The notes beneath the pieces were generated by a model. The model did no database searches. It saw only the letters and a program-made list of their open reading frames with translations, and was not told the origin of the DNA. From Neckera pumila (taxonomy: Eukaryota > Streptophyta > Bryopsida > Hypnales > Neckeraceae), in the NCBI GenBank assembly GCA_963969595.1, contig OZ018411.1:8000501-8064500 (forward strand): a stretch of 64,000 nt of DNA, in the 5' to 3' direction. Position numbers and translations under genes: made by a program. This document shows, piece after piece, positions 1 to 58,450 of the stretch (position 1 is its first letter; each line of letters starts with the position of its first letter).

Positions 1-67
1 CATCAATAATGCCAATGATAACATGCTTGTTTTTGGGTCATAACATTTCGATATTTAATTAAGACAG

Positions 68-119
68 AATGATCCTTTCCAACACAAAATTAGGCATTTT
101 TGCACTTGGCCAAGTGCAA
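68..119 (-). repeat. Left terminal inverted repeat of the giant element
   Basis: Read on the minus strand, this block aligns with 22539-22608: CCAAGTGCAA, then AATGCCTAATTTTGTGTT, then GGAAAGGATCATT. Bases 1-67 show weaker continuing similarity (ATGAC, an A-rich run, then GCATGTTATCA), so the repeat probably runs off the window edge. Bases 120-613 have no gene and form the 3' flank of the minus-strand frame. Confidence 0.6.
100..119. promoter_or_regulatory. Perfect 20-bp palindrome in the left inverted repeat
   Basis: TTGCACTTGGCCAAGTGCAA is its own reverse complement. Its half-site CCAAGTGCAA occurs twice more, in direct orientation, in the right repeat. Position inside a terminal repeat and palindromic shape suggest a protein-binding site, for example for the element's transposase. 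The role is inferred. Confidence 0.45.
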
Positions 120-613
120 TGATCGTATGCAAAACTATTCACAAAAAATGTGTTAACAAAAGCTTGAGTACCCCACAGATTTTTTAAAAATCCTTTTTTT
201 AATTTCATCATGCAATACTATCACTTCAAATGCAAGCTGTCTGTAAGGATGCAATTTCAGTTCTTCCAAGAGACACACAAGTCCAACACATTTTATTTCT
301 TCCTATCAATCATTTGTTTTGGTCTCATGTATTAATCTTTTTGCTTCGTACATTGCAATTACATTAGTGTTATAATATTTAAATGCGGATACCATGCGTA
401 CAGCAATTTTCATAAAATGTTTTTAAGATATTTATTTATAAATCCAGAATGACAATGAAGGTTTAGCAATTACCTTCACATTTATAAATTATGTGCTCAC
501 ATCAATCAAATACTATATAGTCATTCGAACATCTTCATAGACTTTCAAAACTAACACACAAGGTCTATACTCTCACATACTTTATTCTACCATCACATGT
601 ATTATTATGTTGC

Positions 614-3600
614 TTATAACGGCCTTGCTTCATCTGATGCCTCCAACATTTGTGCAGATGATTGTTCAAAGTCTTCTCCTTCTTCTATACCAATTGCCTC
701 CGCTTGATCGTGTGCATTTAGTCCATCAATTGGACTCAATGGAGGCAGAGAGGTATACTGCAACGCCGTATCCACCATAGCGCTTGCAACAGGCGTTGTC
801 ACTCCCGCTGATAAAGTTGGCGAAAGACAAGGTCCTTCCAAGATGGAAGTAATCCGGTGATAAATGTAATGTGGTCCTTCACCTGTCCGAGTAAATCGAA
901 CGTTGTCCCTATTACGATAACATCCTTCACCATCAGGGACAAAGCTCATTTCATCCAATTGGCTGAATGCAGAAAATGCTGACATGGACTCCGTTTGTGC
1001 TGTTGTATCGGCACTTTCTCCTACGCCCCCTTGAACTTCTTCTGGTTCCACGTTGTCCACCTCATCAACTGCTTCTGCAACAACAAAATCCAGGTCTTGT
1101 TCCACTTCCATTAACTCTGCTTGGTCCCCACGGGCGTCACTGACTGCATCAGTGTCACTAGAACCTAAACTTCAGCCAGCACTTGGTAATCTGTCAGATT
1201 GTATCCGCTCAGCATCACTCTCATCTTCATTTGTCGATGAGGCTCCCGAATCAATTGCTACAGCTTTTCCCTTTCGCCTTACTCGTCTAGTCACTTGAAA
1301 TCTGTCTTCTTCATTGGAGGAGTCCCTGGATGACCGTGGTAGTCTTTCAACTCTACCACGTGGCACAGCTCCATCTGTTTCAGAAACACCGGGACCAGGC
1401 AAGTTCTCTTCTGTAGTCAACACTTGTGAGGGTCTGCATTCAGCGGCCATATTCACACTGTTCACCATCACCAACTTCTCCCCATACATCGATTGCAATT
1501 TGTCATACACAAATTGTGTTTTGACGGACACTTCTTCCATAATGATGACATCATGGCCCACATATCCTGTCTCTAAAATCCCTGGAATTGCCATTGTTAT
1601 GCCTAATGTTACCAACCCCCAATTTCATGGCAAATACATTTGTACCAATCTTTTCAACTCCACTGGTGTCCTCTCGAACTTGTCTTGCATTCGAGGCATC
1701 ACTTCTGCACCCCAAGAGTCTTGAAATATAACATGTAAGTCGTCCGTACTGTTCGGTAGGTTTTCCATGAACCCACTCTCCTTTGGATAATTCATAATGA
1801 TGACAATGCCACCAATGGGTTGTACACCGCGCCGTCGTTGCTCTCCATGACGCAAATCATGCACGTATGAGGACACTGTCTCTGCTTGAAATATCCAAGA
1901 ACCTTGTAGCACGTGGCAACCCTTTGGCAACGCCATCCTTGACTCCATCGCTTCGTCAAAGGATACGCCTGGCGGAAACAAAAACACGGCATTCCAATGG
2001 AAAATGCAAGACATCCAGTTCTTCAATTGTTGCACAACCTTGCTGTAATCCTCGTTTGACCATGGGATGTCCTCTCCTTGTGAACCTCCACGTCTACAAT
2101 CAAAAATCCATAAACATGGTTTGCCAAGTTCAATGTACTCGTCCTCAAAGAACCCTCCTCTACATCTCACGTGAAATAAAGCTTCACGCTCTTCGTGTTG
2201 CACTTCAGAGATTGCAACTTGCCAATTCCAACGAGCATTTGATACATCCTCAACGTCTCGACCGTATCCCGCATAGCCTTTGCGACCCGCTCGGATATCC
2301 ACAAAGTGTTGTCTAACGAAAGCTGGGACTACATTCTCTAAACTGCTGAGCATTTGAACTGTCGTCACTGCAGGAAAACTCCACGAGGTCTTCGTGTCAT
2401 TATCTAATGTTCTCCCCATCAAAATGAACTACCTTCCTTCCAAATCTCCATACTTGCTTGCATCGATGGAGAAGAAATCATCCATGGATGATGGATTTTC
2501 ATCCCCTGCTTCCACTATGAGAAATCGAATTTGATTTCTGATTGCATCTTTCCGCTGTAAAGTGTCCACTGCATATGCCACTGTACCTTTAGAGGGGTTT
2601 ACAGAAGCAGCATCATTGAAATAGTATCGTTGCAAAGCTCGCTTTCCGTTCACCACATCCTTTGCAGCCATCTTCTGGACCACATGTACATAGTTTTTCG
2701 TAGAAATGCTATTCAAGGGCCTCCACCAGGTCTTCTCCATTCTCTTCCGCTTTGGATTCCCATCCACTGTGACATCAAGATTCCGATCTCTAGCCATCTT
2801 CTTCCATTTATCTTCAGCCTTCTTGCTGAAAAATAATTTTCCTTCCTCATATTCTTTGCATACCTGCACAATGGCCTTATAGGACTCTTCATCTTCATGC
2901 CAAGCATGGTGTGTATAATCCACCATCTTCCTTGACAGCTCCCCCAACAATACATGCTTTGATAAGTTCTGACTCAAATGTAACGCACTCGCTGCCATTG
3001 TCAACGCTTTTGCTCTGTGTGCATCATCAGCTCGAGTAGCAACACTTGGTCTTCCACACGCTTTCCATATATCGCGCAGTTTGATGAGATTCTCATAATG
3101 TGTGGTGAAGAACTTCCGGTCAAACTCCTTTGCATTAATTTTCACCAACGCTTCTATATAGAATTGAGGATTGTTGTAAACCACAAACTTCGCTTTCCGT
3201 TTTACAAACTGCGCATGATACTCTTCATTGGATAAGTGCCCCTCTTCCTTTTCTCGTTGAGCTCGTTTACAAGCACCAACAACATGTTGGCCATCTACTG
3301 GTTCCCATACAATATTGCTCTCCAACCACCTTCTCTGTAATGTGCTGCTCGAGAGGGATGGATTCGCTTGGCAATGTCTTAAATACACGGCTTCAAATTC
3401 ATGTGCAGTACCTTCTTGGCTGAACGGCACCTCTACCACCTCTGTCTCGCCCTCGTCGTTATTACTGTCATAGCGATATGCAATGGGACGAAGGGTTATT
3501 GCACTGACTCCATCAGCTTCAGATCCCCTGAGGCGCTTGTACATTTCATTTACACGCCAATCCATTAGCACCCTGTGGTTTGTCTCTGCGTTAGCCACAT

Positions 3601-5029
3601 CACAGATGCTAGCGATCCTTGCATCAAAAATCAAACTTTGCCCCCATATATATCCTGCTCTGTACTCGGTCTCAGTAGGAAAAACCACAGGTGCTTTCGT
3701 AATATTCTTCGGCAACACTCTTCTAGGCTCTTGTTCCGGTTCACCTTCAGAGGAATCATCCTCAATAATAGCATTTTCGCCATCATTTCCTTGTGGAGGG
3801 CGGTTTTGCAAGGCTGCTCTTCGACGACGAATCTGTGCTGTTGTTCGTTTCCTGACGCTTTGCTCTTCTACAGCATCCGTTGCACAAGTGCGCCGCCCTG
3901 GTTGGTCTCTGGACATGTCTGGCACTGCAGAATCATGTTGCAATTCATCTCCACCACGTGCTCTACCTGCACCACGTCCTCTACCAGCACCACGTCCTCC
4001 ACCAACATCCCCTCTCCTAACAACACCATGTCTTGCACGATCGGCAACCCTTCCAGCATCCACGTTGGCCACTACAACATGTGACCTGTATACTCTATCA
4101 CTTGAGCCAACTCTTGGTTGCCTTGATCTTGATCCTGATCCTACTTCCGTGACTGTGGTTGGAGCTCCTTCTTCTCCTTCACTAGGTAACTCAGGAAAAA
4201 CCGTGGGTTCATTTGATACAGGATTCAGAGTTCCCTCACCCCCTGACTGCAAAAATTCTTCAGTTACTTCCATCTCCACTGATGGTGGCCTTACTGCTGC
4301 GCTCCCTGGCAGTTGTACCTCTTCATTATCACCTGTAGGTTGAACAACAACATTGGTTTCCGCAGATTGGAGACGTTGACGCTGTGCCCTTGGTGTACCA
4401 GAAAGTACCCCTTCATCTGCATGGATTCCTAATCCCTCTTGAACAGCAGCTCGCTTTCGATTCCGTTCATCCAAAGGAACCCAATTTGGATTCACTGGCG
4501 TAGCAAGATTCCGATACACTTCATTGAAGTCTTCTGGATCTCTTGGTGCAGGCCGCTCTTGGACACCACTTGGGTTCATCCTTTCTAATTCTTCACGGCT
4601 TAGAATCTCCCGGTATCGATGACGCAATGCTTGCACTTGTTCAGTGGTCATCTCCATGAATCTCTGAACCGCTCCCTCTCGTTTAATCTGGAATTCATGA
4701 GGCACTTTCTTCCAATCTTTTGCCACACTCTTCAAGCTACGCATGGGAGTAAGAACTAAGAGAAGTTGTTGCGGAACTGGAGCCATCATCAACATCTTCT
4801 TCAATTTATACTTCTCAAGTGTTGTTTCTGTTGTGGTCACCGAAACAATCAGTCCTCCATCAGCGGTGCCCGTGAGGCCTTCGATGACTCCATGTGAAGA
4901 CGCCAATGCAGACTCATAATGCCCCTGCCCAATTGGAAAATCTGTGATCCACAAAGAAGACTTGTCATTGTTGTCTGCTACGATCCACCATCCGTGCTCC
5001 AACCACTTTGAATGAATCTTCGGTGCCAT
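614..5029 (-). pseudogene. Large RGG-linker protein with methyltransferase-like region; three in-frame stops
   Basis: A single reading frame of 1,472 codons from ATG at 5029 to TAA at 614. It is interrupted by TAG at codon 867 (2429-2431), TGA at codon 1135 (1625-1627) and TGA at codon 1286 (1172-1174), with no frameshift. I chose the MAPKIHSKW start because the frame upstream follows a possible splice acceptor (TTTTCAG). Order: a globular N-terminus, a disordered acidic/Ser-rich part, an RGG-like Gly/Arg run near codons 340-360, and a Lys/Arg-rich helical region to codon 866. Codons 870-1285 resemble a permuted DNA methyltransferase fold: LWIFDCRRGG sits where DPPY would be, and TPVELKRLVQMY then WGLVTLGITMAIPG where motif I would be. 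The last part is acidic and low in complexity. The catalytic residues appear lost. I do not recognise the family by name; the methyltransferase reading is a hypothesis. It is divergent from the gene at 19069 and is probably the second gene of the same transposon. Confidence 0.6.
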
Positions 5030-5071
5030 GATGCCCTGAAAATGAAAGTTCAATAATACTTTAGTATGCAC

Positions 5072-8000
5072 TGACGTTCTAAGAAGTTTTAAAATAAATT
5101 AGAAGAAATTAAATATTGGAATTTCTATTGTACCAAATCTGAAAGACACACTATTTTTGTTGTGAGTTCTGAAAAACTCATGCAATAAAACAAATGAATA
5201 TTCTTTCCATGGTACTAAATGTAAATAAAGAGAGGACCACGCTTACCAATGAAAAAAACACTCTATTCCAACAACAGTCCTATTGTTCAAATCAAATGAA
5301 AGTGTTTTCGAATAATGTCCTCGTTCTATGCATGACAATGAATATCACAATTGTTCTTACAAACGCACTACACTTTTAGTCCAAAAAACCTCAATATAAT
5401 TGGCATGTGAAAATCTTATTTATCTCTTCTCAGTACAACAGTACATGTATAATTTTATCATAACCTTTATATGCTGTTCTTTGGTCTATCAAATAAAGTA
5501 AAATCAGTTCCACACTCCAAAGTAAAAGTGAACTTATAAAAATCCATCACTGTACTTTTTAGTTCCTGAACTCCAAGTTCGAAATTCATTTGAACTTATT
5601 TAAATGTTCTCTTTTACATGTTCTATACAGTTCACTGTAACAATGTGTTTGAGTTTACTAAAACTACATAAAAATTGTAATGTCTAATTGCTTTCAATGT
5701 ATCCTTTGCTCATACTGGCTTGACAAACTGTTGACGTACATAATGGACATCACATGGGAACTTCTTCCATAAATTTCTAAACAAAAACAAACAACTTGAA
5801 TGCAACTTGATTGCAAGTAGAATATACATAATATATTGGTATACAATGCTGCAGCAGGCCAGCAGCGAAACAAATTGAAGAACCATTCACACAATAACAA
5901 CGGCCATGAAAGAAAACCAAAAAAAATTTAAGGAAAGCCAAAAAAAATAGTTCCTCAAATTCTAGATTTCATTAACTTACGCTTCAGGACCTTAGAAATA
6001 TATGGTAGTTGAAATGGAATCCTTTTTGAACTACTTATAGACAAAGTCTTCATAGTTGGTATACTAGATACCTTCTAACTGCTTTTGAATATCTACTCAT
6101 ACAGACTTTGTAATAGAGAATTCCCCCTTTGTACATTCTAGGATACACATATCCATTCCAACTTCAACATTTTATTTAATTTCTCCTTTAAAAACATTGA
6201 ACATTCAAACCTTGTTAACATTTTTTTTAATGTATTCTGAATACATAGTACCTGAAGTCAATTGTTTCCATGAAACAATCATAAATTTCACTTCCATAGG
6301 AGATTGGTGCTTAGCTTTGTTCTGAAATAGAACCTCCAAAATACATACATATCGCTAAAAAAAATTTTGAATGATTCCTGAAGTTCCCTTCATCTCGGTT
6401 TTTCATGGGGGGTTCTAGAATTTTTTTAAAGATGTCACAAAACTTTTGCTTCAAAATACTATAATTTTCACTTTTGGCATTTCTTTGGAACGAACATAAT
6501 TACGGCTCTCAAAAAGAATTTATCTATAATTAAATTATATGAGACAACAAGGAATGGATCAATACATCTCCCCTTGCCTGCTACTTCAAAATTATTCATC
6601 AAATGTATTTTTGCATAAGATTATGAAGTCTAAATTTTACAAATTCATAAATTCTAGAGCCTCAGTTCGTTTACTATCAATTCCAATAAGCAACCAAAAT
6701 TGGACATTACAGTACTGAAGGCAACGAACTTAAACCTTGAAAAGTCCCCCATAAATTGAATGCATTCAATGGATTTAACATTTTGTATTTTTTAGTTATA
6801 AGTTTCATAGTAATTTTGACTACATCTTTATCCATAAGATGTAGTGGATTTATGAAATTCTTCATAGGTAATCATGAAACAGTTTGTTTTGGCATAAATT
6901 CATATCTTCTGCAAATAGTGCTACATTTGCAAAGAAGAAATAACAAGCTTCAAAGAATGAGAATGACACTGCCATGAGTAAATCCTGACTAACATTAATG
7001 AAATATTTTTATTTTTAAAAAAAGGGGGAAAAAGTACCTAATGCAAATATGCTTGTTGCTCTTGAATCTACAGGGAAGTATATAACATGTGTGATTGTCC
7101 TGCTTCCAATGTCAATTGTTGCGTTTTGCGACCTCTGATTTTCTGGAGATATCTGGTAAAGCAACATGCACTATCAATAACTCCACCATTCTTTCTCTTC
7201 TAGAACATAGGCTTCAAAATCAGAGGTCTCAAATTCTCCTAAATACTGAATTACATTCATAGAACATAAGAACCTTCAATTTGCAAAAAATTCAAGAAGA
7301 ATTATAAGAATATTGATACGACTCCAAGGTTGCACTACTGAGAACAAAGTGAAAATAAAATGGCAAGCATCATAAAAGAGAGAAACAATTTACAATATCA
7401 AAGTCGATACACTAGCCTTCAGGGAATCCTTTGGAGCACTTGTCATGTGGTTAAGTAAGTGTGAATTTCAATTTTTAAGTAATAGAAAATAAATAATTGA
7501 AAACTATGTGCTTGGTAAAATTAGTTTTCATTTTCAATTTATTGTCGCCTTTCAATGAAACCACTTAATCTGCCAATCCAATATAATTCACTTGAGTAAC
7601 AAATGACAACTTCCTCCTATTGTCCTCATTTAAAGCTATTGACCATATTGTATCCATTTTGAATATAGAAGACAAGTAAAACAAACTCAATTGTCACTTG
7701 AGAACTTTACAAAAAATGATTTTCTGTGGAAGATTTTAAAGTCCTAGTTCCACAAGCTCACAATTTTAACATTCCCAATTTAGTTTCTTTTATTTCAATT
7801 GTTCTTACAATAAAAAAATGAATTTTTTTTTAATAAATCATTAATTTTGTAATGCATTTTGAAAAACCAACTACCCAAAATTAACTATACGAATGTCTAC
7901 TGCAGTCGCACTATTCTATTTCAAAAAAATTAAAATATCCTAGTGTACCAACCACATTTAAACACGGGGGTGGATTCACGATACTATTGGAAATAATTTA

Positions 8001-11000
8001 AGGGAACTGTATTGTTAATGTATGAGTAAAAGGATGATTATGATTGTTGATACCTTGTGATTACCATAAATAAGAATGTATCAAATAGAGAAGTAAAAAT
8101 GGAGGTTGTCTAAAGCACAGTACAAAAGATAATTGAACAATGATACTTTCATGAATTCTTAATTCCTATACAACAATTTAGCCAATATCCAATGCTTTAA
8201 TTTATTTCATTTTTGTGGACCAATAAAAAAGATTTCAAAAAGATTTTTTTCGGGCAACCTTCATATCTTCTTTCCATAGTATAATAATAAAAATAAATAA
8301 ATCATAAAGTGCACTTGTACAACTTCTCGGAAAAAATATGTTTATATAATGAAATTTTGTAGATACAACAAGTTGATAAAATTGTTTTGTGCTTTACATT
8401 TTTGTTTTCACATTTTAGGTTGTGTCAAATTGTATTTAATTCTCATCATGTTCTTACTTGTATATAACTATGTGCTCCCAAAAAAATATCAAATCTCCTT
8501 CTCCTTGAAATATTTTTATTTTACAATGTGTGCAATCAAAGTTTTAGAAATGCCTCCATTTGATTATTACACTAATCTTCCACTACATAAAAAGTTCAAG
8601 TTGCATATACAACTAGTATATTCAAATATTGGCACCTTGCAATATTAATGAAATATGTAGACAATGTGATGCTTCCGTTTGACGTTAATAAGTAGACTAT
8701 ATATCCTATTCTTGACAGAGTTGCCACGTCCAATTATACAATGATGATTTCTGTCATTATTTTTTTTTCCACATGCACATGTATGAACCCCTAAATGCCC
8801 AAGGTTTTATTTGAGTTCTAAAATTTTGTTCTAATTTACAGAAAAACAACCAGTTCAAAAGTCGACTCACATTTTTTATAAATTAAAGCATCCTAATTCT
8901 AAAAAACAGACGTATTAGAGAATACATGAGAGTAAGAAACACAACAATGTCACCTTCCATCACAAGATGAAAACACTAGAACTTGAGGATATTCGCAATG
9001 CAAAAATGAATTATAGTCTTCCATTCCTCTTTTTATTTGTCAATACCTAATTCATACCCCAATTAATGTATGTCTTCTCACTATTTGGTTCATACGATTT
9101 TTGAATTAAATGTATATTGTGATTTTTTGGATACAAGAATAGTTAAAGGGGAGTCTTGCTTGTAAGAGTCATCAACACTACATGAAGTGAATATTGCAAT
9201 GCACACCTTCGCCAAAAAAATTTAATAGAATAATCATATCAATCTTCTATGAAATCACATGTTCCATACAGGCACTGGACTTCAATAATAATTTTTCAAA
9301 AAACAAAACCATTCGAAATATCAAATTTTTTACTTTTTTTTTAAAACATTACAGTATTGTTATCACAAAACAAAGGTGCTTTCATTATATTTGGGTAAAA
9401 ATAAAAGATTCCCAAATAAAACAATAGTTCACGATTAGTTAAATTTGATTTTTAAAATCCATTTTTTGTTCCTGTGTTTAGAAATATGAAATTTCTACAA
9501 TGGCTATGTCCTTGAATGACATCTGTCTTGGAAAACATAAGAAGAATATGCTATTCTGACAAAAACTTAACCAAATCTATAATTAACTTGTTAACATAGA
9601 ATAAAAATCTAAATATCAATGAACCAAATTAGAATTTTTGGTTTTCGGTTTTAGAACATTTTGAATGACAAAAGACTTAATTACAAGTTTGAATCCCCTT
9701 ATACTGAAATTGCAATTCCTAATGTTTACTGATGAAAAAATAGGCTTCACTGCTCTGGATCAAAACTTAGACTTTTACAAAAATCATAATCCAAGAATAA
9801 TACCTGATGCAAATGTTATAGGTGCTATTAGCTTGCAAACTACCACATTGCATGCATGATGGTAATGCTCCCGCTCTATGTAGTTGAGGTCCTTCACATG
9901 TACTCCTCAGAGGAAACCTACCATATCCAAAAAAATATCAACATCTTCAATTGTGCTTCATTCTTGAAGACTTGTGACTGTCTTAAACTTTATTTCACTT
10001 TGTAGTGACGTGTCCAGTAGGTTTAGGAAATTTACAGAATCTTAATTTCTGGAAGTGACTCAAATGAAAAATATTCCTTTCTAATTATCACTGACCATAG
10101 GTAATTCCTACAAAACAAAGAGATCGCTCAAGTGTTAAAAAATTGAGTGATAGCATAACACAAATGCAATTTAGTAATAAAACAAATCAAAGTAGTAGGT
10201 CAAACATAAGACTACTTAAACTATCTGACCTTGTACTTTTCAAATGACTTAAACATCAAGAAAAGCATCTTTTTAAACAAATTACATGGTCGGTCATGTT
10301 CGAACGAGTATACTTAAAAACCTTACGAACAAACTTAAATTAAATTTTCAAACACTTCATGAAATAATTTTTTTCATTCATATACAATAGAAGTATCAGG
10401 AATTGTTTGTTTGTGAAAGATTCCTAGTAATTATTTTTTAGCATTTATAATGGTTGTTTGTGAATGTCTACATTAATTCTACTAGTATGACATTGCAAGT
10501 GACAATGTTTCATAATCATTTTCATTAACAAACGATTATAGTGAATAATAACTAAATTCAATGAGTTTAAATGAGGAACTCGATTTTGGAGTGTGGCCTT
10601 GAAATGCTTGGCCTTGATTCACTAATACATGTGAAGGACACATACCTAACTTTCACTTGTTATCTACCAATTTCTATAGATTTCTACTCAGTATCCACCT
10701 ATTTGACAATTTAAGTGGTCTAGGGAATTGTTTATTTGGAAAATCATAGAAATTACATAGTGCATCTAAAATTTTTTTATTTTTTATACTCATCATTTTA
10801 ACTTGTCAATAGTGCAAAAATATTAATGGCAAGAAAAATTGCATGCAACTATGAATTGCTTATTATTGACATTCCCAGCTCCATGGGTGCAACTCTCAGT
10901 CTCCCTAAACCCTCAAGGAATAAAGAATCACAGTTAGAAAATGCCCAATTTGATTGGCCATAGTGTGAGTAATATAATTTAGATGAAATCAAATATAATT

Positions 11001-11100
11001 GGCCACATTCCCATATGACCTTCTCAAAAACTGCTAAAGACTAAATACATGAGGCCTAATTACAGTTTCTTGGTCCTTCCAGGGCTAGCACAATTTTAGC
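5072..11100. other. AT-rich interior of the giant element, no supported gene
   Basis: About 6 kb upstream of the minus-strand frame. Open frames here are short (under about 100 codons), AT-driven and look like no protein. There are homopolymer A and T runs and one short TTAA-element remnant near 8791. It may include a 5' untranslated exon and promoter of the 5029->614 frame, since an AG acceptor sits just before its ATG, but no promoter can be named. Confidence 0.5.
8789..8812. mobile_element. Remnant end of a TTAA-type miniature element
   Basis: Reads AACCCCTAAATGCCCAAGG, matching the left end of the complete 639-bp element at 40907. No matching second end is seen nearby, so only a solo terminus remains. 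Confidence 0.4.
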
Positions 11101-11177
11101 CCTTCCTCATAAAGCAGGGCTTGCAACCCTAATTCAGATTGCACACCTGCAGTAACGATAGATTCTCTAAATCTGAT

Positions 11178-11597
11178 TTAAAGATTTAAGGGAGTGAAAG
11201 TACAAGAAGACGCAACACTCGCGAAAGCTGGAAAAACGTAGTTGAAGATAGTATCTTGACAAGAATTCGGGTTCCTACTTGCACAGTTATCAAACTTGAA
11301 AGAAAAGGAAAAAAATTGGGCAATTACAACCATGAATATCCTGTACAAAGGTCTGAAACAAAAAAAAAAAAGGCTGAAGTAATTTCCGTTTCCAAATTTA
11401 TGACCTGATGGAGACCTGTGCTTCATCCACTGTCTCTGTAGCCAAAACCCGCAGTACACTTGAAGAAACGGAACCTTCTCAGCTCCGGCAGGAGAAATTC
11501 CAGAAACTGATGGATATCTGTTGTGACCGTAAAAAAATTTTGGACTCTTCCACCGAATTTGGTTGAACAGCAGCCTACGAGCAACTTCCGTTTCCAA
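11178..11597 (-). other. Unassigned 139-codon open frame
   Basis: Starts METEVARRLLFNQIRW with a basic, amphipathic N-terminus like an organelle-targeting peptide. It reads as protein-like for about 70 codons (to GHKFGNGNYF) before turning into a Phe-rich tail that could be intron. I recognise no family and see no adjoining exons with confidence. It lies in the GC-richer island (11.1-14.1 kb) between the two genes of the giant element, so it might be captured host sequence or part of a nested insertion. Confidence 0.15.
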
Positions 11598-11730
11598 ATT
11601 CTTCTACAAGAATTTCAGCCACCACAATTTAGGCCTCAATACATGAATGCCTTCCAGTTTCTCTCAAAGTGAAATACAAATATCAACATTACAGCGCTCA
11701 ATCACTGAAGCTCAGTGACAAACCTTAGAA

Positions 11731-11881
11731 TTCACAGATCACTGTTGCTCACAGAATTTGAAGACATGAAGCTTGATCAGCTCCTCTCTTACAGAATCAA
11801 AGCTCCTCTCTTACAGCTCAGCTCCTCTCTGATCAGCTTTGATCAGCTTTGATCAGAATTTGAGCAACAGTGATCTGTGAA
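11731..11881. repeat. 20-bp perfect inverted repeat around short tandem copies
   Basis: TTCACAGATCACTGTTGCTC at 11731-11750 is the exact reverse complement of 11862-11881. Between and just beyond them, AGCTCCTCTCTTACAG-like units recur (about 11779, 11801, 11820, 11890), together with TTTGATCAGC copies. It looks like a fold-back or rearranged minisatellite. No function is evident. Confidence 0.55.
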
Positions 11882-12983
11882 ATCATCTCTTCAGCTCCTC
11901 TCTTACAGAATCCAGTCCGAGGGCCCAGAAAAATGAGTCGGCAATAATCCTCAGCATCACACGCACTCCCCGATCCAACTCTCAATTCTCTCGGAATTAC
12001 TTGCAGCTCGCTCTGAAAATTAGGGTTTCTGGGAAAACTAGCAAAGCAGGAACAGAAGAGACCAAAACAGAGTAGACACGGAGGTTTCAATTCTGGACTT
12101 TTCTTTCCCAGGCTGCGGGAGGAGCCCAATGTGATAGTATTGTGGTCCTCTCTTATTCAAAAGGCCCAAACACCTTCAAGCGAAGAGAATGTTCAAGCTA
12201 ATTCAGGGCAAGTACTCTCAACAATTGCACTCACAGAAATGAGTCACAAGATTCATGCGTAAGATTGAATATAGCAACACTTCTTCCCAAGGCGGCAACT
12301 GGACTACCAAAAATAACAAGCACGAAAAGACAACGAAAAAACGTAAACCCTAACTGCTAGTGAGTGGAAGTTGCCGAACCTGAAGTCAACCTTGCCAATG
12401 TCATTTACGAGCAACCAGCGGCAACACGAATTCCTGGTGCACCCTCTCCTGCCCTGCCCTGTCCTGCGCATGAGAACATCAAGTCACACCCTGCCCTGTC
12501 CTGCGCACGCGAAGATCAAGTTACACCCGCCATTAACAGCGGCCATCTTGCAAGACTAAGAGAGGCCGACAGAAAGACGGACACACAGATTCTTCAATTC
12601 CGTCAAGTGAAGAACTCGCACAAGCACCTGGTGAGCTTGAATTCCTCCCAACACTCCCGTGCTCTCAATCATCACATTGTCCTTGCACTACTGATTTCAT
12701 TTTGCAAGTCAAGGAGGAAGCAGCGGCAGCTGCAGAGGAGAAAAGCGGCAGAGAAGAACAGCGATGGAAGAGAGGAGCGGCGCAAGGGAGGCGCACCGGA
12801 AGAGAGGAGCGGCGGAAGAGACGACAGCTCGAACTGAGGTGAATTCTCCACCCCACCCCAACTTTTCTTGCCAACACGTGGTGAAGATCACCGAGAAACA
12901 CGCCGCAACGTCTTTTTCGGGAAGGTGTAGCACATTGTACCTGTTCGTAGGGAAAACCAGCGTTCCTCTTCTCACTGGAACTT

Positions 12984-13055
12984 GCCAGTGAACAGTATTT
13001 GTGGTCAGACCCCCCGCACATGGGGAGGGTCTGACTGCAAACACTGTTCACTGGC
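12984..13055. repeat. Imperfect 30-bp fold-back hairpin
   Basis: Left arm GCCAGTGAACAGTATTTGTG then GTCAGACC pairs with GGTCTGAC then TGCAAACACTGTTCACTGGC on the right. About three mismatches separate the arms, and the loop is short and GC-rich (around GCACATGGG). It could be a small fold-back transposon or a transcribed hairpin. No flanking duplication was recognised. Confidence 0.5.
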
Positions 13056-13298
13056 ACGCAAAACATCTTGTGACGGGAGGCTTTGCAACGAAGGACACTT
13101 TCTTTCAGCCGGGTCACTCATTTCGAAACCCGAACTACGAAAATGAACTAACTAAGATGGCCGTTGGCAAAACGAAACAAGTAACCAACTATCGCATTGA
13201 CGAGAGGTATGGAGACTCGGTGCAGTCCTTGTATGCAGGTATGAAACTAGAAGCTCATAAAATGAACTTGCCAAATCTCTCCTCCTTCTGGACACAGA

Positions 13299-13430
13299 AT
13301 TGAGGCTCTCCCACCACAGGCACCGACGTGAATTGAGGCTCTCCCACCGTAGGCACTGACGTGAGTTGAGGCTCTCCCACTGCAGGCACCGACGTGAATT
13401 GAGGCTCTCCCACCGCAGGCACCGTCGTCA
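13299..13430 (-). repeat. 33-bp minisatellite, four units, encoding an 11-residue repeat
   Basis: Four tandem units of 33 bp begin at 13299, 13332, 13365 and 13398, each close to ATTGAGGCTCTCCCACC plus A/G-CAGGCACCGACGTGA. The unit is a multiple of three and the minus strand stays open through all four, giving TSVPAVGEPQF-type repeats within a 65-codon frame (13255-13452). The frame may be part of a damaged protein that continues from 13511-13768. Confidence 0.7.
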
Positions 13431-13510
13431 CAGTTGCTGTTAACGTCTCCACTGAAAGTGGAGTTCCAATTTCGATTTCCGTCGAAACCCTAGGTCGTTC
13501 AAACTGTCAA

Positions 13511-13768
13511 TCACCCGGGGTTATTGGACCTAACGTCCTGTTGTCGCATGTTTGTTGCACTGCAGATTTGCCTGAGGAACCAAACATTGAGACCGTGCTT
13601 GCCCTGAGGGTTCCCTGGGGTTGAACTGTTCAAACTGGACTGTTTGGGAGGATCTCCGAAAGCTGCCCATGACTTCTGTTTGTTGAAAGAGTTCGAGGAG
13701 AGGCCTTCCTGGAGTTCCCGTATTGTTCCACTCTGCGGCTCTGACCCTTGTAAGTACACACCACGCAA
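13511..13768 (-). pseudogene. Possible retroelement ORF1 fragment
   Basis: 85 codons with protein-like composition, including NKQKSWAAFGDPPKQSSL and GKHGLNVWFLRQ. The SWAxxFGxP-like phrase and the polar, Pro/Ser-rich context recall the start of plant LINE ORF1 (DUF4283-type) proteins, but the match is weak. It ends at a TGA. One frame over, open sequence (QFERPRVSTEIEIGTPLSV) leads into the 11-residue repeat, so a frameshift may separate two parts of one old gene. No reverse transcriptase is seen nearby. Confidence 0.25.
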
Positions 13769-14615
13769 CTTTGTTTGAGAACTAGAAGCAGATCGTCCTG
13801 CTAGACGCTTCTACGCATGTCCCTACGAGTATTGCAGTTCAACCTAAAAACTAAATTGCTGCCGAGAAAAACAAGGTAGCGCAGCAAGAAATTGCTTGTG
13901 GGCATCTCCAAATGCTCTGAAACTCCACAACGTTCACTGTACCGATTTGCACTACTGCTCTGCTAAGTCGAACGGACAGGGAGACTTCAATTGAAGAGGA
14001 CGCTGGAATCCACGGTAAGTAGAAACCCTAGAACGAAGCCTGCAAGATGTAGCAGGATTGACTAAGTGTAGGATTTACGACAATTCAGTTTCCACTTGTT
14101 TCGCTAATGAAGAGAATCCTTGTTTAGTTTTTTTTGCCTTTTTTTTAAAATTTGTTTGTTTGTTTGTTTGTTAAGGTAAGTACACCTAAAGTGCAAGCTT
14201 CCTAAAATCAGGCTGTAGATACTGTTGTATAAAATATACTCCCTCTATTCATATGACTGTTTGATTGCTTTTGGCTCCATTTTTCCTCAGCACATTAGGA
14301 ATTTGTAGTTTATTCACATGGTGTCCATAAAATGCATCCTCAAAGAATCTAGAATCCCCTTATGACTACGAATGGGACCCTACAAATTTTATTTAAATAT
14401 AAAAAAGAAAACCGTACTAAATTTTGCTAGATTGTTTAATTATGTAAATTATGGTCAATTACCTTTGATTGAAAACTTCCGGATAGTGTGTCCCGCAACC
14501 GCATCCTCTGTACTGCCGGAGAGCCTTGTAGAAAAAGTGCTACACGGGTTTAATTATGTGGCATTCAAACTTACAATGTATAGGTTTTTGAAATTTTGGA
14601 GTTAATTTTTGAATG

Positions 14616-15548
14616 AACCTTTATAGGTCAGAGACTATGTTTTCACCAAAGATACTCGAAAACTGCCGTTTCTAGTACAAGTATCATATTTAAAGAAAAA
14701 AACATCTTTGGAGACATGTAATCATAGGGTTCTGTAGTCAACTTGTTAGAAAATATGTAGAAAAAAATTCGAAGTTTTCCACCATGTACGTTGCAATGTA
14801 TGAGCATTTGAATTTAGAAAAACCCTTGTTCTGGCCCTGCAAAAAATCGAGCAACAACACTTCACAAGGTCATATTTAAATGAAAAAATGTCCAATATCG
14901 TGGTTACTCTCTAGATTCAATTATTAAAACAATGTAGCTACATGGTCAAAAAAATTCACGTCATTTGTAATTGTAGAACATGTATGGAAGAAATAGGTTG
15001 TAGAAAAAAGTAGAGAGTGATTCAAAATACCAAATTCTTAAGAATTTAATTATGAAATTGGAAAATGTCAATCCCAGAGGTTGTAATGTAGCAGTAAAGA
15101 ATATACATCCTAGGCTTTAATTTTTTTTTCCAAAAATATTGGAAATTGAGTTAAATAAAGGACTGTGAAGTTCATTTTAGAATAGGGAATTCGTGACATC
15201 CTGCAAACTAGAGTACCTCATAATTTTCATTTCATAAATTAGAATGGAATAATTCGAAGCTGTATATGTATATATAAAGCTAGAGAATGAATTTCAAATT
15301 TGAATTTTTTTTTAAAAATGATTTGTTCCGAATTTATTTGAGTTGCCCGCTGACCATTGAAAGAGACATATCAGCCAATAACTTTTGAAGCATGCAGTAA
15401 AAAGTTTTGAAAATTTGTGGGCCTACAAGCTATTCCATGGGCACATATTGTTTGAAATTTCTAAAGATTGTGAATAAGATTTCCATTTGTACTGAGTTGA
15501 CCAAAATCGCTATGTTGTCAAGGAACGCCGTTTGGTCCTTCAGGGGTT
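14616..15548 (+). mobile_element. TTAA-family miniature element, diverged copy
   Basis: Homologous along its length, same orientation, to the complete element at 58451-59373. Shared phrases include GACTATG, AAAACTGCC(A/G)TTTCTA, GACACATGTAA-like and CTTTAGGGG-like ends; here the left end has decayed to AACCTTTATAGG and the right end is TTCAGGGGTTAA. It has no coding capacity. It is nested inside the giant element, so it inserted later than that element. Confidence 0.6.
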
Positions 15549-16679
15549 AATGAATTACAAAATTAATTTTAATTTTGTTTTGACTGTGGCGACAACATAG
15601 GGCATAATAGTTATAAATTTAAGACTTAAAAGGCATTTTATTTTGTAGACTTAATACAACTACATTAGATTTCTACCTTAAACTATACATTTATAAAATG
15701 TGCAATTCATTATTTTCATTATTATATGTCCATATTTAATTTACTTTCTTTTTATCTTCATAGATGGAAAAAAGTTTTACACAAATTTTTAATAAATTTT
15801 CTTTGTGAAAATCATATTAAATAGAAATAATTCATAGGGATTCATCCAGACATTTCGTAAAGACATCAAGTGTGACATGCAATTACATGATTGTCCTTTT
15901 TTAATATTAGATTTTTCTAGCTATTATAATATCCTACACAGAGTTGGTTTGATTTCAATACGAAGTTGTAATTAAACCAAACAATTTTTTAATTTGTGAA
16001 TCTGCTATTTCTTATGTCAATTTAATCTGAATGTTTTAAATGCTTGTTTTCCAAATTTTGCTTCTTAAAATTAATTCAAGCCCCTTTAAAGATCTGTATT
16101 GATGGAAATGAAAGCTAATATTTTTAAAAAGTATATAATTGAAAATTAATATGTTTCAATGGAAACAGAAGTCTTGTAGAGTAATTTCGTTTTCACGGTT
16201 TATGAGTCCGAATTTTCAGAATTATTAATTATTTGATGCCAGAATTCTATGTATGTTATGTATCAATAACATTCTTGATTGAAAATGTATACATGTACAA
16301 GCTTAAATTTTCCCTGTCAGTAGTAAATGAATATGGGAAACTAATCCGTAAAGTTCATTCCATTGATAAAGTTTTATGAGAGGGACATAAGATCATGTTT
16401 GCAGAGAATTCATTAATTATTTTTACCGTTCGGTCATTGCATTGAACAAGTATGGGGCATTGTTTTGGATGTTGCATTTTATATAAAAAGCATATTAAAC
16501 AACATTATATTCATTATAGGGAAGATTGCTCTTCATTTATGAAGAGCAATATGTTCAAAGATATTGAAGAGCATTATATTCATATTATGTAATTATGATT
16601 TTTTAGAGCATTAATGAAGTACGTGGGGGATATTTCATAAGAGTACTCTAAAATAATATTGTATGCAATATCTAAAGTC

Positions 16680-17262
16680 AATCCCTAAAGTCAGTGATTG
16701 TCCCTAGAAGAGACGTAATGGATTTTGGGCAGGTTCCATTAAGCTCAAATTTTGATGAAACTTTCTGAAACGTCCATAATATAGAAAAACTCATTAGCTT
16801 CCTGGGAAAACAATTTTACTTTATCACTGTCTGGCAGCAAAAGTTATGCTACAATAACCTCAAAATTTAAGATATCGACAGCAAACAAAATCCAAAGAAA
16901 ATTGAGATAATTTTTTTCATAGTTATTTTATAATAGATTATATTTTTGTTTAAATGTGAAGCTTTGATTCATTCCATGTGGATTATTTAGTGAATTGAAA
17001 TTAATAGAGTATAATGTTTTGCGGGCAATTACAACATTTTCTTGAAAGGAAATTTTTTTTTCACTTGAAATGCTAATATCTTTTAATCCATGCGGTAAAT
17101 CATCACAGAGTTTGTACCACATAATTAGAGAAAAACGTGATGGAAGTTCTTACAATTAGTTTCTTGAAGATGAACACTTTCTTGATTTTTTGGATGAATG
17201 CAACAAAAGTAGCAATTTAGATTTATTTTCAACCAAAAAAATGGCCTTGGGACTTTAGATGT
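16680..17262 (+). mobile_element. TTAA-family miniature element, internally deleted
   Basis: Begins TCCCTAAAGTCAGTGATTGTCCC, continues with GGATTTTGGGCAGGT, and ends with AAAAATGGCCTTGGGACTTTAG. This is the same order as the 871-bp copy at 45017-45887, but it is about 290 bp shorter. Both ends have drifted and no clean TTAA pair remains. It is also nested inside the giant element. Confidence 0.5.
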
Positions 17263-19068
17263 TCACTCCCGTAGGACGCATTGCTACATTACTTTCTTAT
17301 GTAAGATTGACATACTCCAATTCCATTTAGTCTCCCTTGTATCTTATACCTATATATTCTGTAGAAGATGAAAATTATTATTTTTTCCTAATTTTTTAAA
17401 TTCATCACATCAGCATGAATTTGTGAAATTCAAAACTCCGTACTATGAAGAATTTAAAATAACAAGGTAAGAGCGGACGTTGAAAACCTTATTGGCTTTT
17501 TCAGAGAAGGTCAATCCTTTGAAAGAATTTTCAATCGATTTTCATAAAATTGGCATGTAAATCCATTTGTGGCATTAGTTACAGTTTGTTGAAGTAGTAA
17601 CTAGGTGGTTTGTGAAAGCGTTTGCATTGAAAATTTTCAATTCTTCTACATCGAGAGAACATAATTTAACTTATATGTTAAAAATCATTTATAGAGCACG
17701 ATCAATGTTATAGCAGACTACCTCCATAAAGAAGCATGTTTTGAATGTAATGTATACTTGCTAAGAAATGAAATACCATTTCATTTGCTTTGAAGTTCAT
17801 TTTTTTAAGATATTGTGTACTTTATGATATGGGGTCAAAAAGAAAAAGGAATTGGATGAGTTGTTTTTATTGTTCTTCAAACCTTGGTAAATCCTAAAGT
17901 TTCATTATCACCGTGATTGAAGGGGCGTGGTTAATTATTGTGGAAACCATCCGTATAATCGTTTCTCATTTAGAATCCTTGAATTTGCAATATACCCTCG
18001 AGGAACAAAATGATTTGTACATCTGTTCATGCTATGTTCGTTAGTGTGTTGATGTTTTTCTATTTTCAGAAGGAAAAAAAAATGCATTAGCTTTTTTTGA
18101 ATGTTATTCTTATTTCTAGTGTTGCTAGGTTACAGAACTAACGCCACTCGAAACCATTGATAGAGTTCTTCGGCCCCTAAAAAATTAAAAATAAATAATG
18201 AAATTGTAGTAAAGTTTGAAATAATTTGACATGTCAATTTGGAGAGGCCCTCCAGAAGGCTATCATTGAAAGTATTACTATTCCCATGAAAAGACTGGAT
18301 TCATTTCATTTGAAGTAGTGATGAAAAAAATGTTGGACAATCTTGTTTTGAGGTCAATTGAAGTATTTTATTTAAAAAGATTTACATGTATGATTCATTT
18401 TTTAATGCAATGTTCACTAGTTCTCAAGAAGAAGATAGATTGCAATGGATTTAGTGAGGTTACTAGTACAGAGTTAGCATTGGGATATGTAATATCAAAT
18501 TCCATCTTTCAACTATAAATGGTGTAGTAGTTAGTTGAATCTAAAGAACAAATACATACATTGTAGAGAAAATCAGCATTCGGAAGGGCATTTCGAAATT
18601 GACATGCCAAGTTATTTCAACCTTGGACTGTCGCCTAGGAGAAATAGCCTACATGAGTAGTCAGAAATTAAAGTAGTCCTCCACGTGAACGGTGTTTGTG
18701 TTTTGTGAATTTCAAGAAAGAGAACTTTAAGTTCAGTTTTGTAACTGGGCTTCATGTTTTGGAAGTTGTAGTTGCAACATGCAATTATTGTTGGAATTGA
18801 ACTGACTAATATAGTTGCAGAAGTTTCATGGAGCAAAGCAAGGGAATAAGAACACAACAGTGGTGGACAATTTTATAATGTTAATATAGATACATTTAGA
18901 TTAGTCAAGCTTCTGGAATTTCATCACTGTTTTGAGGAAAGTGAAGGAAATTTTGTTTAATAATTACAGTTTGAATGGATTACAACGTGGACAATGTTTA
19001 AGAGACATATTTAAATTATGTAATTCTGTACAAAATAGGTGACAGTTTTGCATTTGTGACGCTAGAAA
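17263..19068. other. AT-rich 5' flank of the plus-strand element gene
   Basis: No supported gene. Just before the ATG at 19069, TTGTGACGCTAG precedes AAAATGGCAGCC. This AG resembles a splice acceptor and parallels the AG before the ATG of the divergent gene, so both genes may have an untranslated first exon within the 14-kb middle. An ATATTTAAATTATG stretch near 19,010 is AT-rich, but I cannot call it a TATA box. Confidence 0.35.
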
Positions 19069-22000
19069 ATGGCAGCCGAAGCATTTGGAAGTCCAGTGGC
19101 ATTCAATGCCGTAGGCACAACAATTGTTGCAACCGAGCGAAGGAGCGTTGGGGACAGATTGGCACGCGTGGTACGGGGAAGACTTTTCCAAGAAGAAGAT
19201 CGTGTACCTCTTGGTGGAGTACCACAAGGTACTAATGGTATGGTTCAACTTCTTGGGGACAACGGTCGTGTTGTGGGAGTTGGCGTGGTGGACATGAGTG
19301 TTACATGCGGTGATGAACTTCACCAAGAAAAACTACGTCCTTTTGAAATTGCGGTTCGTGTTACACATGCTATACACGGTGCAGAATGGGTTGGTGAGTT
19401 GGTAGGGGAGACTATGGGAGATTGTGTAGATAAGATTATACGATGGCGTCGTACTTCAGTTCGTTCTGCACTTCCCTCAGAAGTGAGAACAACGACAAGA
19501 ACTTCAAGGGAGGGGCATAATTTCTGTTTTCCTCCTGTCTTAGCACCCGAGTTTGATTTTCATGACGTGGAAGACAGTTCGAGCACTTCTGAGTTCACAC
19601 CACCAAGTCAAAGTACAAGAAGCACAGCTGAAGGAAGTTCTCCTGTAACGCAAGGCTCCAAAGCCAACAATGCTGATTTCACAAGAGAAGAAGGAGAACC
19701 TCAGCGTACGCCCAGGAGGAGGTATTCAATGACAAATCGAAGGGTGAGGGAGAGAAATCCAAGGGAGAGGGGAGAATCAACTAATCAGAAAGTTACTCTA
19801 GAAAGTGTTTTGCGTGCAAAGGAGAGAGGAGCATGTAAACACAATTGTTTGTGTGATGTAGATGCAAAATATGTTTTGGATCAACGATATATGGCATGGG
19901 GGCAGAAATACGAAGTGCGGGCTACTTGGATAATGCAAATGCTGAATGCCTTCTACACTCGCACGGAGGGTCCGAGAAGAGACAAATACGTGACAAAATT
20001 AGATGGCAGAGTCGTGTGCAATGCATGCTATGCTGAGGCGTTGGGTTATTCTCAAAGGCGTTTGAAGCAATTGAAGACAGCACATGCTGTATACGGCAGA
20101 GTGGCAGCCGTTCATGGAAACACGTGTCATCGGAGGGAAAGTGCAAAAATGTCTGCAACTAGGGAAAGCCTCAACGTTTTTGTGAACGAAGCAGGGTGTC
20201 AGCAACCTCATCGATCGGTTCGCCGGAAAATGGACAATGCAGTGTTACCATTGATTCTGTTGCCAATGAATACGACCAAGTTGGATGTTTTTCGGTATGT
20301 AAATGAAGAAGTGAAGAAACTGGTGGACGGGTCAGAGTTGTCAATGACCTCGTTTCGTCGCCTTTGGCGGAAGGAATTTCCACATGTGCAAATCCCACCT
20401 TTTTCCAGATTCTCAAAGTGTTATCATTGTTGGGAGTACAAGTGTGGGATGGAGTTCATGACAAGTGCAATAGCAAAGGTGAAGATAAAAGAGTTGTACA
20501 TGCTGCACATTCGATATCAAATGGAGGAGAGGCGAGATTATTGGTTGTTTAAGAGGTCCGCAATGATCACCCCGGATTTTTTCATGTGCTTGATTGTGGA
20601 CGGTATGGATCAAAATACGACCATGATACCAAAGATGAGGCAGACTGTGAAGAACATCGAATCTCGATTTGTGAAGACTCATTTGTGTGGTGTACTTGTA
20701 CATGGTGTCGGCTTATATGCAGACGTGTGGATAGATGCTCACCACAAGCATGATAGCAATCAAGTTGTAACGTCGGTGATGAACGTCATATGTGACGTGA
20801 AGCGAAGGAAGGGGTCATTGCCACCAACGTTGAGGATTCAAGCGGATAACACCACAAGGGAGAACAAGAACGCTTACATGTTTGCCATGTGTGCTGCACT
20901 AGTTGGACTTGGTTTCTTCAAAGAAGTGCATCTTTGTTTTTTGATAGTGGGCCACACACATGAGGACATTGATCAAAGATTCAGTGTGATTTCAAACATA
21001 TTGAAGAAGAGAGACATAGACACTTTGACAGAGATGTTGCAACTTGTGGAGAAGGGACGTCATACACAGAGGCTTTTGTAAGTGCTCGGAAGCTTGAGCA
21101 CGTTCGCGATTGGAAGGCATTTATTACACCTCATTTGCTACGAGGAGGGGAATCACTTACAGGCATTACTTTTCCACACCATATGAGGTTTTACGTGGAA
21201 AATGGGTTGGTCCGCGTACAACACAAGCATTTTTGCACAGATGAATGGGGCCCAGCGAGAGGACATTTGTGTCTAAATTCACTACCAAGCGTAGTAGAGA
21301 AACCAGACCTTGCGGAGTTGTTTGCAGCTGATCAGAGGGAATTGAAAGCATTGGACGAATTCATTGCATACAAGAAGAAGATGATAGAGAGAGGTTACAA
21401 TCCAATTAGGAACATGGAAGTGGTGGACGAAATAGAAGAATTCAAGGAGTACTTGGAGGAATTTCCACAACGAAATAGAGAAGGTGCCCGTGATTTACCA
21501 TTTTGGCCCAGCGATGTCTTGAACCAGAACAGGGACGATGGAAATGTTCCTGACTTGGAAGGAGGTACAAATTCAAGTGCAGTTGCTGATGAAGATGGAA
21601 ATAGAACGGAGAGTGCAACCGTTGACAGGATTATGGCAACCATGCCAAATCCTGAGAGGAGGGGATATTTCGGACCCCGCAGAGATAGACCTGTACAAGC
21701 AACATCACGGAGAGTGACTGGAGGGAGGATTCGAGGCAGAAAGAATGAAGTTATACCAGAGCTCAGACAAGATGCTGGGGAAGATCCATTTCCTCCATTC
21801 AATCCAGAGAATGACGTTGTTGTAGGGCAGTACGTAGCCCTAATCGTAGAACTAGCGGAAGTGAGAGGAGGAGTACCCTTTTTTTTAGGGAAGGTGCTAG
21901 AATTCGGTCAGGGGACGTGGGCCTCAAAGATGAAGGTCCTCTGGTATTGGCCTACTATGAGACCTGGAACACATGATGAAGCAGGTAGTAACCGAGTGAG

Positions 22001-22271
22001 ATACACAAACTGTATGGAGTCAATGTGGGAACCGTCTGGTGAGATGTTGGGCTGGACCGAGAAGGAAGCCGCTATATATTCGTGGACGGATGTCCCTCAT
22101 CGGGGGAGAAGTGGTCATGTTATAGGTTCCAACATTACAATATATGGCGTGGATACAGAGGAGACAGTGATCATTCCACTAGAGGCTAAAGCACATCTTT
22201 TGGAATACATGGCAATGCAGATGGAAAACCTAGATGACGAACATTTGCAGAATGATTTGAATATGTATTAG
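19069..22271 (+). pseudogene. DUF7869-type putative transposase with BAH-like tail; one frameshift
   Basis: ATG at 19069. The frame runs to a TAA at 21079-21081, but shifting frame near 21,055-21,062 (VEKG into TSYTEAFVSARKLEHVRDW) restores an open frame to TAG at 22,271, about 1,066 residues in all. Order: an N-terminal domain; a basic/Ser-rich linker; a Cys-rich segment (CKHNCLC, residues about 260-266); FSKCYHCWEYKC; then the conserved core. Core motifs are LIVDGMDQ (D511), QADNTTRENKN (D593) and GHTHEDIDQRF (E632, D633, D635, with H629 and H631). This order and spacing look like a DDE/RNase H-type triad. The C-terminus (about 21,811-22,085; GQYVAL, FFLGKVLEF, WYWP) resembles a BAH/Tudor-like reader. 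The core motifs are typical of DUF7869 proteins found in many eukaryotes; their role as transposases is inferred here. It is probably the main recombinase of the giant element. Confidence 0.65.
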
Positions 22272-22479
22272 TGAAATATGATATTCTACAGTGCTCTTTG
22301 ATCTGATAATTGTAGGCATTTAGAAGTATTTGAGTGTGAAGCGCAGAATAATATGTCTTGAAAGTAGTGTGGAGTGAAAAGTGTGAAAGGTTTTCATGAA
22401 ATAATTATAAACAATGGAGTGTTTGACTACTTTTTTCCAAGCAATTTCTACTACTAAGAGCAAATGATGTTTCCAATAA

Positions 22480-22501
22480 CCCCCCCCCCCCCCCCCCCCC
22501 C
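22480..22501. repeat. 22-nt C homopolymer
   Basis: Twenty-two consecutive C residues between the stop of the plus-strand element gene and the right inverted repeat. Long C runs are unstable and error-prone in sequencing, so the exact length is uncertain. Confidence 0.9.
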
Positions 22502-22538
22502 TCAACATTTGAGATTGCCCATTTTAGATGCCGTACTA

Positions 22539-22608
22539 GCCAAGTGCAATGTCGCACCCCCCAAGTGCAAGAATGTCTAATTTGGTGTTTTCCATGGAAA
22601 GATCATTT
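22539..22608 (+). repeat. Right terminal inverted repeat of the giant element
   Basis: Contains two direct copies of CCAAGTGCAA (22540-22549 and 22561-22570), then AATGTCTAATTTGGTGTT and GGAAAGATCATT. It is the inverted counterpart of 68-119. It lies shortly downstream of the plus-strand gene and a 22-nt C run. The duplicated CCAAGTGCAA is a candidate recombinase-binding motif. Confidence 0.6.
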
Positions 22609-22644
22609 TTTGCAACATCGAGGTGATTTTTTGTTCATGACAGC

Positions 22645-22816
22645 AAAACATGATGATGACCAAGTCCTCTTTATTAATGGCAATAAGGCATCTTGATATT
22701 TGAAAATTTGGTCTAAAACTTATTCAAACATCAAAACATGATGATAATCAAGTTTTCTTTATTAATGGCAGCAAGGCATCTTCATATTTGAAAATTTTGT
22801 CTAAAACTTGTAAGAA
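22645..22816. repeat. Direct duplication, about 88-bp unit, beyond the right inverted repeat
   Basis: AAAACATGATGATGACCAAG starts one unit at 22645 and AAAACATGATGATAATCAAG starts the next at 22733. Both continue with CTTTATTAATGGCA, AAGGCATCTT, ATATTTGAAAATTT and GTCTAAAACTT. The left inverted repeat has a weakly similar phrase (AAGCATGTTATCA) at bases 14-30, so this duplication may still be inside the element's right end. Confidence 0.7.
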
Positions 22817-23088
22817 AATGAATTTCATACACAATCCTGATCTTCAATTGTTGCTCAATTTGCCTAATACTGTAGAACTTTTTAAAGTGAACTTTTCTAA
22901 GACAATGACCTCTTTAAAGTGACGAAAGTATTGATTGCTCAATCCCACATTAGTCTCAACCTAAATATATACATCAAAGAATTTCCTTGAGATTTGAGAG
23001 CATGGGGACTTGAGCCTAGTCGTGAGGCTATTAGGGGAAGTAACCCATTCCCGATCAATGATCCATTTCCAATCACTTTAGGAATTAC

Positions 23089-23180
23089 CACTATTAGAAA
23101 ATTGGGCCCGATCTGTTGTTTTGGTCGCGTTCATTATCAACAGACCAAAACAACAGATCGGGCCCGGTTTTCTACTAGTG
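23089..23180. mobile_element. Complete 92-bp miniature CACTA fold-back element
   Basis: Begins CACTATTAGAAAATTGGGCC and ends GGGCCCGGTTTTCTACTAGTG. The flanks carry a 3-bp duplication TAC (23086-23088 and 23181-23183), the length typical of CACTA/EnSpm elements. The 32-nt arms (23095-23126 and 23143-23174) pair almost perfectly around a 16-nt loop. There is no coding capacity; it would depend on a CACTA transposase elsewhere. Confidence 0.8.
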
Positions 23181-24341: not shown

Positions 24342-24345
24342 TTAA

Positions 24346-26244: not shown

Positions 26245-26248
26245 TTAA

Positions 26249-43171: not shown

Positions 43172-43262
43172 TTAATTTGGGCAAAATCAACAAAAAAATT
43201 GTGAAAACAAATGTTACAATACCCATGTTAACAAAAAATTGTTGATCATTTGTTGATTTGTT

Positions 43263-45012: not shown

Positions 45013-45016
45013 ATTA

Positions 45017-58446: not shown

Positions 58447-58450
58447 TTAA

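Follow-up and report, generated by a model that had tools for sequence, protein, structure and literature searches.

Near the left end of a 64,000-nucleotide stretch of the Neckera pumila genome (the window, taken at its full length) lies a DNA transposon of ~22.5 kb, present as a decayed copy at positions 81–22589, with ends placed by inverted repeats and genomic matches. Two large coding frames of ~46% GC, one on the minus strand (5029–614) and one on the plus strand (19069–22271) that carries the Pfam family DUF7869, read outward from an AT-rich middle; the interior as a whole is ~30% GC, with a GC-richer centre. A sequence-only reading of the window had recognized these opposed frames, and also the inverted repeats past both stop codons, which we place at 81–109 and 22561–22589. 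These terminal inverted repeats (TIRs) are 29 nt long, start with AACAC, agree at 26/29 positions and were the sole outstanding inverted match in a sensitive flank-versus-flank comparison. The extent of 1–22820 given in that reading was too wide: an 88-bp tandem duplication (22640–22815) lies directly outside the right end of the element. The element is laid out as follows.

77–80, no strand: left copy of the target site duplication, TTCC, 4 bp, exact in 16/20 copies
81–109, plus strand: left TIR (AACAC...), 26/29 identical to the right TIR; its edge recurs in 34/39 other listed genomic matches
614–5029, minus strand: left gene, ~1,470 codons from MAPKIH... at 5029 to the stop at 614–616, with VDGQH and DCRR motifs
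5030–11600, no strand: AT-rich left interior with GC skew, conserved and colinear among copies; probably an intron or 5′ region of the left gene
11700–14000, no strand: GC-richer, CpG-richer, fast-evolving centre, near which the GC skew switches sign; probably a bidirectional promoter, as predicted from these features
12983–13056, no strand: central imperfect palindrome with 36-nt arms, 86% complementary, and a 2-nt gap; DNA fold z −7.8
14100–19000, no strand: AT-rich right interior, colinear among copies
14633–15550, no strand: dispersed repeat within the element, through which L012, L013, L015, L020 and L026 (fetched genomic loci) align; probably an old nested insertion
19069–22271, plus strand: DUF7869 gene, a putative transposase, in open pieces 19069–21081 and 21135–22271
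20593–20973, plus strand: candidate catalytic motifs (D, D, E/D), IVDGMDQ (20593), IQADN (20836) and GHTHEDID (20950)
20662–21060, plus strand: Pfam match to DUF7869 (PF25273), E 8.4e-46, 156.4 bits against a cut-off of 26
22561–22589, minus strand: right TIR, the inverted match to the left TIR, with a right edge shared in the genome
22590–22593, no strand: right-hand counterpart of the TTCC duplication at 77–80, also 4 bp

The assembly that we searched comprises 339.5 Mb in 18 contigs, and the end searches scored 40 of 143 candidates for window 1–3000 and 40 of 172 for window 19800–22700, so that copy numbers are lower bounds. At the left edge, 34 of the 39 other listed matches begin at query positions 79–88 and one at 68; three of the four that remain have a separate piece starting at 79–81. 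At the right edge, 39/39 other listed matches stop at window 22582–22600. Within the window alone the TIR match is modest (E ~1e-5), and it is the recurrence of the same edges across the genome that places the pair beyond chance. Counting the window's own, 34/40 left ends have a same-strand right end ~19.9–25.2 kb away (4 of the 34 lengths were taken from shortened left matches and the window's own from the query edges), providing the many copies with shared termini that the sequence-only reading had sought as a check on its giant transposon. The interior is likewise shared: of the 4.5 kb at window 6000–10500, 4.3 kb or more is matched in colinear order at 16 places (the window itself among them), and 18 of the 20 fetched right-hand loci align to the window from their first element base through the right end, with L021 and L028 not aligning in this manner and L011 short of ~375 bp relative to the window copy. 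L016 carries a ~240 bp insertion in its copy of the DUF7869 gene (~4377–4614 in element orientation). The ~0.9 kb repeat at 14633–15550 belongs to a dispersed family with further members outside the transposon at 42237–43175, 58447–59377 and 63466–63999; the element may have gone on moving after this repeat inserted, or the repeat may derive from the element.

Insertion junctions were sought in 21 copies, in 20 of which both could be read. The target duplication, which had been expected to be of fixed length, is 4 bp: 16/20 copies carry an exact duplication and all 16 words are different, whereas 5,000 trials with shuffled right flanks gave 0.89 on average and never more than 6. No duplications of length 5–8 were found in the 20 readable copies. 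The copies with no exact 4-bp duplication are 9, 12, 17 and 18, and the right end of copy 17 is damaged or misregistered. When flanks were joined with one duplication removed and compared with a database of the window plus the fetched loci, other stretches matched across the junction in 6/20 copies. Clean empty sites number two (copy 7 versus L028, 89%; copy 10 versus window 24343–24745, 89%); the cases of copies 6, 16 and 17 are weaker, and that of copy 20 is the weakest, as the match shown is to its own right-hand locus, L027. Sharp shared TIR ends, a duplication of fixed length and related empty sites are features of a TIR DNA transposon (class II).

The two genes are paired across the genome. 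A search with a 702-aa left-gene query, in which 63 of 267 candidates were scored, returned 73 rows that reduce to 63 loci after 10 second pieces are dropped, at 59–100% identity. Of the 150 DUF7869 matches that were scored, the 91 highest in rank were compared with these loci within a 35 kb limit, and 55/63 loci had a DUF7869 match in outward arrangement, 10.2–30.5 kb away, which is the divergent order that the sequence-only reading had proposed to look for. Adding right-end matches raised this to 58/63, so that the loci with no partner fell from 8/63 to 5/63. Under random placement 0.33 loci were paired on average and never more than 3. One same-strand neighbour was seen; pairing extended to 20/21 diverged left-gene loci (≤75% identity). 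Genes that never occur together, and inverted repeats that belong to small unrelated elements, the two outcomes named as refuting in that reading, were not found. The earlier suggestion that a TIR-bounded unit would explain the DUF7869 family would hold for the part that is paired with the left gene, but none of the 59 lowest-ranking of the 150 scored DUF7869 matches lies within 35 kb of any of the 63 left-gene loci. DUF7869 therefore appears to be the wider family, in which some members are accompanied by the left gene, although more diverged left genes could be missed; the 59 matches that lack a listed left gene in their vicinity may stem from other families of transposon.

Selection apparently preserved both genes as the family multiplied, as judged from substitutions at the three codon positions (0.039/0.032/0.069 for the right gene and 0.076/0.076/0.150 for the left gene, the latter in eight copies). 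Mean identity to the window copy is 93.9% in the DUF7869 gene versus 85.1% in the interior at 16.7–18.9 kb (18 copies, with L021 and L028 left out), and the most similar pair of DUF7869 genes is 98.5% identical. In the window both genes are broken, the left by three in-frame stops and the right by a frame break between 21081 and 21135. Elsewhere in the genome there are left-gene frames of 1,488–1,540 aa that are stop-free in the matched part, and stop-to-stop DUF7869 frames of 1,044 and 1,076 aa are present among 20 loci. Eight of 24 proteins related to DUF7869 are full-length in one frame (1,053–1,066 aa). The in-frame stops in the eight left-gene copies total 37, of which 25 fit a single C-to-T type change and 16 lie in L007, where the frame is shifted by indels. 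Dozens of near-complete copies within a single genome thus testify to the spread of a 20–25 kb element with a selected accessory gene aboard.

The motifs of the DUF7869 protein and its co-occurrence with the left gene suggest that it is a DDE/D transposase. Residues D505, D508, D587, E626 and D627 (numbered as in P0001) are invariant wherever a row has a letter (17, 17, 16, 16 and 16 of the 24 rows of alignment A1, respectively). PF25273 was the only Pfam family above the cut-off in the transposase proteins scanned, and all 150 scored genome matches, from 794 first-look candidates, exceed that cut-off. In a structural model of the putative transposase the fold, which would be RNase H-like in a DDE/D transposase, is weak and of low confidence, and a Foldseek search with this model gave no significant match. 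No relatives of the protein were confirmed in viral contigs. DUF7869 was not found named in openly licensed PubMed Central papers, an absence that is weak evidence.

The left protein most likely represents a candidate of ParB-like/DNA-methyltransferase type. A search aimed at its conserved core found three homologs in the protein collection (P0025, P0026 and P0027, 46–47% identity), and a query of the first 880 codons, with search words from the first 500 residues, found none. The window and P0025 share VDGQH, which reads IDGQH in P0026 and P0027; we take this segment to resemble the ParB/DGQHR signature. A stretch after it in P0025 and P0026, ERSPTEL...VLDxSST, presumably resembles motifs X and I in the order of beta-class methyltransferases. 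The catalytic motif of N4/N6 methyltransferases is D/N/S-PP-Y/W; the presumed position of this motif holds DCRR in P0025, P0026, P0027 and the window (the four rows of alignment A2 that reach it) and DCRH in copy L006, which suggests that the methyltransferase part is degenerate. The sequence-only description of this module as methyltransferase-like is accordingly plausible from its motifs, but went unconfirmed in the comparisons made: no family reached the cut-off in Pfam or NCBIfam, PHROGs matches were weak and uninformative, no significant match was found among PDB sequences, and a profile comparison of parts of the protein with seven beta-class methyltransferases (E. coli YhdJ and six from phages) was not significant (E 0.33; seven sequences against four, hence shallow profiles). 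The strongest support for the ParB/methyltransferase assignment comes from Sola1-1_Ec32, a 21.5 kb transposon of the brown alga Ectocarpus, because it carries such a gene in the corresponding position: the available sections of PMC12477816 describe a 1,104-aa ParB-like plus DNA methyltransferase gene on the strand opposite the transposase. This element also overturns the statement, made from the window alone, that no described class of transposon has such an arrangement.

Between the two genes, the central palindrome is better conserved than its surroundings, aligning at 80–96% in copies whose surrounding centre aligns at 67–78%, and at 74–86% in more distant copies. With window 12970–13070 as query, all 38 candidates were scored and the matches grouped into 38 loci, 31 of which fall inside listed elements (the intervals of some elements were drawn by hand, using a single end or the genes). 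The palindrome is present in 23/34 two-ended elements, is paired side by side at 12/38 loci and lies mostly 7–10 kb from the DUF7869-side end (6.1–11.3 kb overall). It may be a promoter element, give rise to hairpins or be bound by the left protein.

The rest of the window holds further repeats and frames. A dispersed repeat family with internal repeated similarity occupies 26240–28057 and 44085–45796, and foldback palindromic repeats, perhaps small elements resembling miniature inverted-repeat transposable elements, lie at 59807–60096, 29380–29545, 25047–25201 and 23089–23180. Four long AT-rich frames (256, 838, 125 and 531 aa) on the minus strand at 31545–36860 are perhaps one large host gene; the three of them that were scanned matched no Pfam family at cut-off. 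An exon-like frame at 46862–47296 has an EXPERA domain (PF05241, E 4e-6). An Rfam scan of the window returned nothing at gathering score.

We consider it very probable that these observations reflect a family of giant DNA transposons, mobile as a single unit, with a DUF7869 transposase and an accessory left gene. The DUF7869 protein would recognize the 29-bp inverted ends, excise the element and insert it elsewhere at target cuts staggered by 4 bp, a cut-and-paste mode that would generate the 4-bp duplications. The left gene would be maintained by selection beside DUF7869, and its product, predicted to be a DNA-binding protein of ParB-like/methyltransferase type, would act on the element's own DNA. 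Both genes would be transcribed outward from the GC-richer centre, probably through long AT-rich leaders or introns.

By its size, layout and 4-bp duplication, the element may be a giant transposon of Sola1 type. The Sola superfamily (Sola1–3) was reportedly defined by Bao et al. in 2009; its members duplicate 4 bp of target DNA and encode a transposase of D-D-D type. A possible, if less favoured, alternative is that the same mobile unit falls outside Sola, DUF7869 forming a separate superfamily that shares the 4-bp duplication by chance: our comparison with Sola covers size, layout and duplication length, and the protein is absent by name from the open literature searched while forming a large group in this genome. 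Against this, Sola1-1_Ec32 is near-equal in size and has the same opposed layout of transposase and accessory gene (PMC12477816, available sections). It is likewise possible, if less favoured, that the left protein is an unrelated accessory, for instance another subunit of the transposase or a factor that acts on chromatin or against silencing. The lack of a Pfam or NCBIfam match at cut-off, of a relevant named PHROG and of a significant PDB sequence match, together with the non-significant profile comparison, would fit such a protein, but the (V/I)DGQH segment and the ERSPTEL...VLDxSST stretch argue otherwise, as does the published ParB-methyltransferase gene at the same position of a similar element (PMC12477816, available sections). 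An exchange of roles, with the left protein as transposase and DUF7869 as accessory, is very unlikely: pairing at 55/63 left-gene loci is compatible with either assignment and both roles are read from sequence, but the invariant acidic motifs sit in DUF7869, and the 59 lowest-ranking scored matches, with none of the 63 left-gene loci within 35 kb, are what one would expect if the transposase family extends beyond its accessory. Segmental duplications, or two small unrelated elements that flank the block by chance, might account for an inverted repeat that is short within the window, but are scarcely credible given shared ends, a colinear interior, copy-specific 4-bp duplications and related empty sites, and were set aside on the duplications, the empty sites and the gene pairing.

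Beyond the giant transposon family with its DUF7869 transposase and left accessory, a more speculative proposal, which we judge unlikely when its parts are taken jointly, is that this is a land-plant lineage of giant transposons with its own partition-like or self-marking system, made up of the left protein and the palindrome. The ParB-like left protein would nucleate on the palindrome, of which an element has one or two, and, with a degenerate methyltransferase part, would read or coat the DNA of the element as opposed to writing on it, controlling expression or holding together the distant ends of a 22 kb element for transposition. Combining the palindrome with the ParB-like assignment offers a testable idea of how very large transposons join their ends or mark themselves.

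Comparison with described systems places the Neckera element closest to Sola1-1_Ec32, which it resembles in giant size and in a second gene opposite the transposase. Nested insertions are fixed among copies in most of the giant families described in the available sections of PMC12477816, and one such insertion seems to be fixed here. The Neckera accessory frame differs from its Ectocarpus counterpart, compared here by description, in being longer (~1,470 codons versus 1,104 aa) and in its degenerate methyltransferase signature. The authors of that work suggest that ParB-methyltransferase proteins may bind the transposon that encodes them and alter it epigenetically, and they cite Iyer 2011 and Petroll 2025 for such proteins in green and red algal transposons (PMC12477816, available sections); this is an accessory type proposed to bind and mark the DNA of its own element, of which the left protein is a candidate member. 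The 4-bp duplication is shared with the Sola superfamily. Unlike the bivalve Sola1 transposons, which are among the longest curated DDE/D families (mean 5,445 bp; PMC10294476, available sections), the present element is about four times longer and has a second gene. KDZ and giant EnSpm elements also rank among the large DNA transposons, and accessory genes occur in some of them (PMC12477816, available sections), but only PF25273 was above cut-off in the transposase proteins examined here. No paper on a giant transposon in a moss genome was found in openly licensed PubMed Central, again a weak form of absence. For DUF7869, a Pfam family previously without a function, our analysis suggests one, and the transposases would gain a group of proteins with many members in this genome. 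Set beside these systems, what is perhaps new is this transposase assignment, the conserved central palindrome and an example from a land plant.
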